Of a stretch of 18,370 nucleotides of DNA, positions 11,945-13,251 are shown piece by piece. Origin of the DNA: Actinomycetota bacterium (GTDB lineage: Bacteria > Actinomycetota > Acidimicrobiia > Acidimicrobiales > Poriferisodaliceae); assembly GCA_002731665.1 (NCBI GenBank), contig PCCJ01000006.1, positions 32,715 through 51,084 of the forward strand, written 5' to 3'. How positions within the stretch are numbered: position 1 is the stretch's first letter; each line of letters starts with the position of its first letter. Made by a program: the position numbers and the translations under genes. Under the pieces are notes generated by a model. That model made no database searches, was not told the DNA's origin, and worked only from the letters and a program-made list of their open reading frames with translations.

Positions 11945-12769
11945 TCACAGCCCTGAAGCTTGCAGTGCCCGTTTCGTAAGCACACGTGCTAGATGAGCTC
12001 TGTACTCCGGCGACGCATTCAAATCAGTTGGGGGTTCTGTGTCATCCGCCGCATGCAAAGCCGCTTCATCTGCGTTAGCGCCAGCTTTGAGCGCCTCTTC
12101 AACTGCCTCAGCTCTTATAGGCGTTGATCCCATATTCACCAAAGAAACATTTGTTGAGTCTCCTACTTGAACAGCAGCGACTCCAACAATTGCCCAATCT
12201 TGTGCCCGTCTATTAAATTTCTGATAGTTCCAGTTTACACCCGGACTTTTCGGCACCCGAATCTCTGTAAGCATTTCATCTTCAGCCAAAGAAGACTCAA
12301 AATAACCAGTAAAAAAATCTCGAGAGCTTATCTCACGAACTCCGTTGGGTCCTTGCGCAACTATGGTTCCCCCTAATGCAAGAACTGCGGCAGGAAGGTC
12401 AGAAGCGGAGTCCGAATGGGCTAAGGACCCACCAATTGTACCTCTATGTCGCACCTGCGGGTCGCCAACTTTACTTGCTACATGAGCCAGTATCGGGCAT
12501 TCCGCATTAAGCAGCGCGTTTGTTTCCAAGAAACCGTGCTTAGTCAAGGCCCCGATTGACAAATGGTCACCTTGGTCGCGCACATAGCTGAGATCATCTA
12601 CGCGCCCGATATCAATCAAGACGGTAGGGACCGCTAGTCGAAGCTTCATCATTGGCAGTAGCGAATGACCGCCAGCCAATAATTTTGCTTCATCTCCATA
12701 TTCACTTAAGAGCGAAATTGCTTCTTGAGCTGAGTGAGCTCTGACATAGTCAAAGGCTGCAGGAATCAT
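11945..12769 (-). CDS. coxM: CO dehydrogenase-type FAD-binding medium subunit
   Basis: The protein has 274 residues. The two FAD-binding motifs are AGGHSLLP (32-39) and TIGGSLAHSD (111-120), at the same positions known for Oligotropha CoxM. KFNRRAQDWAIVG (184-196) and a complete C-terminal CO_deh_flav_C domain follow. The subunit passes electrons from the Fe-S subunit to the membrane acceptor. A Shine-Dalgarno-like AAAGG precedes ATG 12769, 14 nt after coxS. Downstream is a terminator rather than a large-subunit gene, so the coxS-coxM transcript is bicistronic as seen here. It is intact at both ends. Members of this family also serve other molybdenum hydroxylases, so substrate identity depends on the missing large subunit. 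Confidence 0.92.
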   Translation of the reverse strand: MIPAAFDYVRAHSAQEAISLLSEYGDEAKLLAGGHSLLPMMKLRLAVPTVLIDIGRVDDLSYVRDQGDHLSIGALTKHGFLETNALLNAECPILAHVASKVGDPQVRHRGTIGGSLAHSDSASDLPAAVLALGGTIVAQGPNGVREISSRDFFTGYFESSLAEDEMLTEIRVPKSPGVNWNYQKFNRRAQDWAIVGVAAVQVGDSTNVSLVNMGSTPIRAEAVEEALKAGANADEAALHAADDTEPPTDLNASPEYRAHLARVLTKRALQASGL

Positions 12770-12783
12770 CTAACAAACCTTTC

Positions 12784-13251
12784 TTAGAGCAAATCTTGGC
12801 CGCTACAGGCCAGAACTGATTTCACAATGTTGTGATAACCGGTGCATCGACACAGGTTGCCTTCAAGACCTTCACGCACTTCAATTTCAGTGGGCGAAGG
12901 ATTTTCCTTAAGCAATGAGCATGCCGCCATCACCATGCCCGGTGTGCAGTAACCACATTGAAGGCCATGATTCTCACGAAAGCTTTCCTGCATAGGATGA
13001 AGCTCGGTCGCCGAAGGAGCTAGCCCTTCAATCGTAACCACATCTTGTCCATCGGCTTGCACAGCTAACATGGTGCAAGACTTAACAGATTCACCATTCA
13101 CATGTACTGTACAAGCGCCACATGATGACGTATCACAGCCAACGTTAGTTCCAGTCAACCCCAATTCTTCTCTAAGGTAATAGACAAGTAGCGTTCTCGG
13201 TTCGACCTCATCGCTCTTAGTATTGCCATTAACGGTGACGCTGATTTCCAC
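12784..13251 (-). CDS. coxS: CO dehydrogenase-type [2Fe-2S] small subunit
   Basis: The protein has 155 residues, the normal CoxS length. The N-terminal plant-type ferredoxin domain binds one cluster through Cys39, Cys44, Cys47 and Cys59 (GCDTSSCGACTV...KSC). The C-terminal helical domain binds the second through Cys99, Cys102, Cys134 and Cys136 (QCGYCTPG...NLCRCTGYHNIV). All eight ligands are present. The start chosen is GTG at 13251 because AAAAGGGGGA lies just upstream and the product then begins at the usual VTVNG strand. An ATG at 13311 would add 20 atypical residues and has no ribosome-binding site. The gene is first in a two-gene coxS-coxM unit, divergent from the TetR gene. Confidence 0.94.
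   Translation of the reverse strand: MEISVTVNGNTKSDEVEPRTLLVYYLREELGLTGTNVGCDTSSCGACTVHVNGESVKSCTMLAVQADGQDVVTIEGLAPSATELHPMQESFRENHGLQCGYCTPGMVMAACSLLKENPSPTEIEVREGLEGNLCRCTGYHNIVKSVLACSGQDLL

Follow-up and report, generated by a model that had tools for sequence, protein, structure and literature searches.

A coxS-coxM pair without an adjoining large-subunit gene and its likely unlinked partners

The coxS-coxM pair and its surroundings

The window (the whole stretch of DNA analysed here, 18,370 nucleotides) carries a coxS-type and a coxM-type gene together with a divergent regulator and a set of putative maturation genes. Below, S, M and L in gene orders stand for the small, medium and large subunits, and related genomes, loci and families bear the labels of our analysis (G, L and f plus a number, respectively). 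The features of the region are as follows.

12784..13251, minus strand: coxS-type small subunit, two [2Fe-2S] clusters; GTG start, 155 aa
11945..12769, minus strand: coxM-type medium subunit, FAD; 274 aa
about 11884..11920, no strand assigned: hairpin in the interval between the convergent coxM and SDR genes; -28.1 kcal/mol, z -4.3
13610..14167, plus strand: TetR-family regulator, divergent from coxS; TetR_N 1e-14
11122..11868, plus strand: SDR oxidoreductase, convergent with coxM; adh_short_C2 2.5e-47
10099..11004, minus strand: CoxD/MoxR-like AAA ATPase, putative maturation protein; AAA_5 3e-10
8958..10106, minus strand: CoxE-like VWA protein, putative maturation protein; VWA_CoxE 1e-50
8623..8940, minus strand: XdhC/CoxI N-domain protein; XdhC_CoxI 2e-21
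7844..8668, minus strand: XdhC protein; XdhC_C 9e-41, XdhC_CoxI 2e-11
6611..7777, minus strand: acyl-CoA-dehydrogenase-like gene within the cluster; ORF named by sequence reading
5887..6606, minus strand: alpha/beta-hydrolase-like gene; ORF named by sequence reading, labelled in L075 and L076
5325..5885, minus strand: MocA-like nucleotidyltransferase, putative cytidylyl transfer to the Mo cofactor; NTP_transf_3 3e-29
4675..5334, minus strand: CoxG with a hydrophobic C-terminal stretch, putative membrane or quinone link; COXG 7e-23

Both subunits had been predicted to be intact, with all eight Fe-S cysteines and both FAD motifs, and comparison with close orthologues bears this out. CoxS matches the Pfam families Fer2_2 (1e-32) and Fer2 (8e-8), and its two four-cysteine motifs are kept in 27 of 27 close orthologues. 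CoxM matches FAD_binding_5 (3e-47) and CO_deh_flav_C (5e-16), its closest solved chains being the CODH CutM proteins 1FFV and 1FFU; the first FAD motif (AGGxS) is present in all 27 close orthologues, and the second, which reads TIGGSLAHSD in the window, occurs as TIGG in 16 of the 27. The pair thus has the hallmarks of the xanthine-oxidase family, an eight-cysteine, two-cluster small subunit and a CoxM-type FAD subunit. An SD-like AAGGGGG directly precedes the GTG start of coxS, and an in-frame ATG provides an alternative start, with which the reading frame would run up to 13311. The ORF coordinates reproduce the predicted 14-nt spacing between the two genes, which follow each other in the order S-M with no large-subunit gene between them; neither the coxMSL nor the coxSLM order is found in the window.

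The original prediction also placed a divergent regulator before coxS and a terminator after coxM. The former is the TetR-family gene at 13610..14167. For the latter, the hairpin at 11884..11920 is strong but missing from the consensus terminator scan, and it is therefore a plausible rather than a certain terminator for coxM. A promoter scan of the sequence found no more sites than in its shuffles.

The locus lies between enolase and DivIC on one side and DUF501 and Ppx on the other. An ABC transporter, the TetR gene, coxS, coxM and the opposite-strand SDR gene are followed by genes of the coxD, coxE, XdhC (two ORFs), acyl-CoA-dehydrogenase-like, hydrolase-like, MocA and coxG types; the ABC transporter, enolase, DivIC, DUF501, Ppx, acyl-CoA dehydrogenase and hydrolase were named by reading of the sequences. 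The CoxD/MoxR-like ATPase additionally matches MadB_ATPase (9e-79) and the MocA-like protein matches matur_MocA_YgfJ (5e-25), both below cut-off. According to the gene orders, the SDR gene holds a constant position in all 27 close loci (L075-L100 and L107). Among 15 genes compared, the acyl-CoA-dehydrogenase-like gene shows the highest conservation, with a mean of 91% over 16 loci.

The missing large subunit

As predicted, no reading frame of large-subunit size is present within the 18.4-kb window, the longest ORF having 423 aa. Since the nearest relatives are metagenome assemblies, and partial cox operons, mainly MAG-derived, are read as likely incomplete recovery in the accessible text of PMC13240472, one could suspect that a misjoin, possibly at 11869-11944, or a binning artefact conceals a linked coxL. 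However, the sister genome G001 is collinear with the window over the 9,526 bases tested, at 94% identity, and no large subunit is found within up to 10 kb on each side of the adjoining S and M genes in the 27 named loci, which come from separate records; these two observations exclude a misjoin. Moreover, in the single-contig genomes G031, G113, G197 and G262 the pair lacks a large subunit within contiguous sequence, which makes an artefact of either kind hardly conceivable.

The relative loci compared are the best 80 of 474, and gene order was read in these 80. No M was labelled in two of them (L104 and L123) and 13 were read as "M only"; the absent M and S labels probably reflect the longest-ORF and overlap-dropping rule of our script, and for some loci the raw matches were also inspected directly. 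The missing large subunit is a conserved arrangement, as 22 of 25 genomes of the family (f1) have their S and M matches side by side and the same pair occurs in single-contig genomes of other families. The 22 include G004, which has both S-M and S-L-M. Elsewhere in f1, G010 has S-L-M with the window-type S and M kept, a contig end cuts the locus in G012, and the window-type M was not found in G024, an assembly of 630 contigs. The nearest named records are the Acidimicrobiales/Acidimicrobiaceae MAGs containing L075 and L076, in which coxM is 97% identical to that of the window; judging from the record names, the setting of the nearest relatives is presumably marine.

Large subunits elsewhere in related genomes

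Our statements on the rest of the genome rest on its nearest relatives, G001 and G002. The original prediction held that the enzyme must take a large subunit encoded elsewhere or that the locus has lost it. Both parts hold, as relatives carry a large subunit at this locus and the nearest genomes contain unlinked ones; the word "must" was too strong for what is an inferred assembly in trans. G001 has two complete large subunits on other contigs, La (L010) and Lb (L011), with no S or M beside them in the flanking DNA read. Both contain the three Mo-subunit domain families only and no Fe-S or FAD domain, and therefore need a partner. Two more large subunits of this genome stand at contig ends and are partial: of the third a C-terminal fragment is present, without the region of the AYxCSFR loop, and of the fourth an N-terminal piece preceded by its own M and S. 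G002, a member of the window's genus in about 30 contigs, has four large subunits; two are accompanied by S and M of their own, and the other two are orphans. A complete operon elsewhere that makes the pair redundant would have spoken against the original prediction. This is only half the case, since G002 does have two complete sets, but their large subunits belong to clades other than those of the orphans, which are left unserved.

The active-site loop, proposed earlier as a way to tell the enzyme forms apart, was examined in these relatives. The two orphans of G001 and the two of G002 all have AYRGAGR, the "form II" motif, whereas AYxCSF is absent from all four large subunits of G002 (L174, L175, L176 and L231). 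For the window's genus, a partner of the form I CO dehydrogenase type was rejected on this ground and, judged on G002, appears unlikely. The examples of form I large subunits seen in relatives have their own M and S (e.g., L211 in G006). The G002 orthologues of La and Lb have a GIGE motif near the C-terminus, the glutamate of which plays a catalytic role in the xanthine-oxidase family.

Large subunits were further examined in 12 of the 25 genomes of the family, which were selected mainly because they comprise few contigs and do not include G004, G010, G012 and G024. Each of the 12 has one window-type S, with M alongside, that is free of large subunits over 4 kb; of the 92 large-subunit matches in these genomes, 40 have no small subunit within that distance, giving one to seven orphans per genome and a single one in G015; second pieces of split matches and rows below the family cut-off were dropped from these counts. 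Contig ends may create false orphans in fragmented genomes, a concern that is met by two genomes from other families, each in a single contig: G031, with one pair without a large subunit and three orphans, at least 36 kb from any small subunit, and G113, with one such pair, one S-L-M set and two orphans. Among the other single-contig genomes, G197 has seven orphans (four in clade X, described below, and one in clade Y) and G262 has 13 (six in clade X and one in clade Y). As only these four and six fall in clade X and other free small subunits are present in both genomes, not every one of the orphans needs the window-type pair. G156 carries one S-L-M set and, in addition, two clade-X large subunits that lack an S within 4 kb.

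The remaining free small-subunit matches are other-kind proteins of 512-609 aa, one small-subunit fragment (G005:C88) and the extra small subunits of G197 and G262. The proteins of the first kind, of approximately 510-600 aa, combine an N-terminal CoxS-like two-cluster domain with an apparently shrunken Mo-subunit region (e.g., L300:2257-3780 in G031); such matches of 512-609 aa occur in 10 of the 12 family genomes, with weak MoCoBD_2 matches, below or near cut-off, in three genomes. Fer2_2 matches of similar E-value are found in genomes of the order without a large-subunit match, e.g., G026 and G028.

A quick tree of 116 large subunits contains 40 orphans, 38 of them from the 12 genomes and two from G001. 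One clade, X, takes up 36 of these orphans and joins them with genes that in other lineages adjoin S and M without lying between the two. Its sister, clade Y, consists of genes located between S and M. SH-aLRT support for X, Y and X+Y is 100, 100 and 94 in this tree and 98, 100 and 86 in a second quick tree of 139 rows; a bootstrapped mixture-model tree of 44 chosen rows gives values of 100/100, 100/100 and 91/89, and here Lb lies in the same half of clade X as the L-S-M sequences. Four orphans are outside clade X (L184, L198, L218 and L221), so that orphan status does not prove use of a window-type pair. Three of these, L198, L218 and L221 (in G023, G006 and G014), represent an orphan family with no S or M in the DNA read. 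The 40 orphans of the tree and the 40 of the 4-kb count are different sets: the partial orphans L178 and L179 of G003 are in the count and absent from the trees, and the converse is true for the two orphans of G001. The large-subunit set left out eight loci (L016, L017, L034, L039, L042, L043, L045 and L166), of which L034, L042 and L043 represent three further family genomes (G022, G016 and G020); the 116- and 139-row trees are also without L033 and L044, and the latter is without 16 more, mostly near-duplicates.

In other lineages, clade-X genes are directly linked to the window-type pair. In seven loci (L113 and L234-L239, the latter drawn from families f30, f29, f31, f48 and f16) a clade-X gene directly precedes S-M, and within the limits of their contigs these X-S-M loci are flanked by enolase and DUF501/Ppx. 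Other arrangements are X-S-Y-M in L241 and X-S-Y in L244, and in L134 and L135 a clade-X gene is followed by an ABC transporter and then S-M. Since L234-L244 were picked for close large-subunit and M matches, they demonstrate that such linkage exists, not how frequent it is. The window locus is best read as the end of this series, in which the linked X and Y copies would have been lost and dispersed X paralogues remain; as judged from these comparisons, the window lineage has lost its linked large subunits and kept the pair, the maturation genes and coxG.

In three further relatives (L117, L128 and L110, with S unlabelled in L110) the S-M pair has the opposite orientation and separates the CoxG/MocA side of the locus from the XdhC-E-D-L side, the set staying together. 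The ABC transporter (an ATPase and two permeases by sequence reading; 14173-16653 of the window) is resident at the locus in the window's genus. Its homologues are located between a clade-X-type large subunit and S-M in L134, L135, L207 and L243, and it may therefore be tied to the S-M system.

The retained pair could be a relic, either decaying or left with a residual diaphorase-like role only, and the loss of the large subunit is indeed real, relatives carrying it at this very locus. Yet S and M are under strong purifying selection, with omega of 0.024 and 0.061, respectively, against G001, and 0.034 and 0.041 against L076; only these two comparisons were used, dS against L107 being saturated for 10 of 11 genes. 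Identity to the window across 25 loci that are more distant is 80-90% for S (mean 85%) and 74-79% for M (mean 77%), the mean for S exceeding that for partial enolase (73%, 24 loci). With the cysteine motifs intact in every close orthologue, decay of the pair was rejected. In addition, the maturation genes are retained, and an X- or Y-type large subunit is present in 185 of the 192 genomes that have this M. Among 298 genomes of the order, 98 have neither, seven have M alone and eight the large subunit alone (E of at most 1e-60 for the window-type M and 1e-150 for the X/Y-type large subunit; at most three large-subunit candidates scored per genome). This count includes clade Y and linked large subunits, and its nominal Fisher p of 1e-59 is uncorrected for kinship. 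A relic is consequently very improbable.

Probable sharing of the pair among several large subunits

The coxS-coxM pair represents the electron-transfer half of heterotrimeric molybdenum hydroxylases. From the gene content and its conservation, the clade membership of the orphans, the joint occurrence of M and large subunits in the order and, above all, the linkage of clade X with this S/M type in other lineages, we consider it likely that its partners are the unlinked clade-X large subunits and that it is shared among them. In the window's genus one pair most likely serves two large subunits, two being known in each of G001 and G002, and in other genomes of the family it probably serves one to six. 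The check proposed earlier, whether an unlinked large subunit lacks its own coxS and coxM, gave two such orphans in each of these relatives; that several of them face one pair was not foreseen.

Under such sharing, each large subunit would oxidise its own substrate at the molybdenum site, and electrons would pass from there through the two Fe-S clusters of the common CoxS to the FAD of the common CoxM and further towards the respiratory chain, probably with participation of CoxG. The latter is a candidate for the common electron exit towards quinone; a quinone role of CoxG is stated for CO dehydrogenases in the accessible text of PMC13240472. Maturation would be supplied by the same locus through its CoxD/E, XdhC and MocA types. 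On balance, we favour a more general arrangement in which, in this group of Acidimicrobiia, one S/M pair, one maturation set and one CoxG serve up to six scattered molybdenum catalytic subunits as interchangeable heads. If true, a new substrate would require only a new large-subunit gene.

Alternatively, the pair may work with a single unlinked large subunit, e.g., Lb, while the other orphans use the S and M of other operons or are inactive. The single orphan of G015 and the position of Lb with the L-S-M sequences in one half of clade X agree with such a one-to-one split, and there is a precedent in nicotine clusters, where kdhL and kdhMS are apart with pnh between them (PMC10494377, accessible part). 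On the other hand, the other S/M sets of G002 accompany large subunits that belong to different clades, and La could only be served by borrowing from one of these distant sets. The neighbourhood of La is conserved in the 11 La loci shown, and La is therefore not debris. Finally, three clade-X large subunits stand against one free window-type pair in the single contig of G031. The one-to-one split is thus rather unlikely, and shared use of the pair remains the preferred reading.

Taken by themselves, the subunits are unremarkable xanthine-oxidase-family proteins. Form I aerobic CO dehydrogenase, encoded by coxMSL and accessory genes, follows the same three-subunit plan with the same kinds of accessory genes (CoxD, CoxE, XdhC-type, CoxG and MocA-like), and the best solved matches of M and La are CODH chains; in contrast to it, the window operon is without a large subunit, and the likely partners have AYRGAGR instead of AYxCSF. 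The best NCBIfam models of the window S and M, below their curated cut-offs, correspond to archaeal glyceraldehyde oxidoreductase of the Cut type, and 4ZOH, which we take to be this enzyme, is among the solved relatives of M and La. Form II cox, defined by coxSLM and AYRGAGR as quoted in the accessible text of PMC13203968, is matched by clade Y in order, motif and type of S and M. The window clade differs in having no large subunit between S and M, the remaining ones being of the sister clade and unlinked; we infer that these AYRGAGR orphans are the partners of the pair. The nicotine ketone dehydrogenase KdhLMS, a heterotrimer according to the available portion of PMC8305194, resembles the window type in having its L gene apart from the MS pair (PMC10494377), so that such separation is already known, but both parts of its gene set belong to a single nicotine cluster and correspond one to one, whereas here they are dispersed, one to several. 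In the open-access literature searched, as far as its text was accessible, no report of one S/M pair serving several unlinked large subunits was found.

Recent surveys use sets of S, M and L genes or coxMSL operons as the measure of CO oxidation (PMC8941161 and PMC13203968, accessible parts), and PMC8941161 describes in Poribacteria expression of coxM and coxS with the large subunit absent. If sharing is real, CO oxidation does not follow from the presence of coxS-coxM; large subunits found as orphans are then functional enzymes, and a single added gene can widen the range of substrates.

The neighbours of the orphan genes differ, suggesting that La, Lb and a third type, Lg, may act on different substrates. 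Each of the 11 La loci shown has a homologue of the fused hydantoinase A/B gene, which either adjoins La or precedes it by a few genes; two further loci (L215 and L227) were removed by the ORF filter. In one of them, L180, Pfam matches comprise hydantoinase A/B, an aminotransferase, a tRNA-editing-type protein, an alpha/beta hydrolase and an amidase. Lg (L181) is near separate hydantoinase A and B genes, an amidohydrolase, an aminotransferase and a nitrilase-type gene. The substrate of La and Lg could accordingly be an N-heterocycle or a lactam, the ring of which is opened later. Lb of G001 adjoins PaaA/PaaC- and PaaD-type genes, an N-demethylase-like gene and a ring hydroxylase, and related Paa-type neighbours are found in 7 of 10 Lb loci. 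The repeated association of clade-X large subunits with hydantoinase/oxoprolinase genes (L010:5463-9347, where the hydantoinase gene was named by homology to L180, L180:2700-7879 and L181:7105-11012) provides a lead to the substrates.
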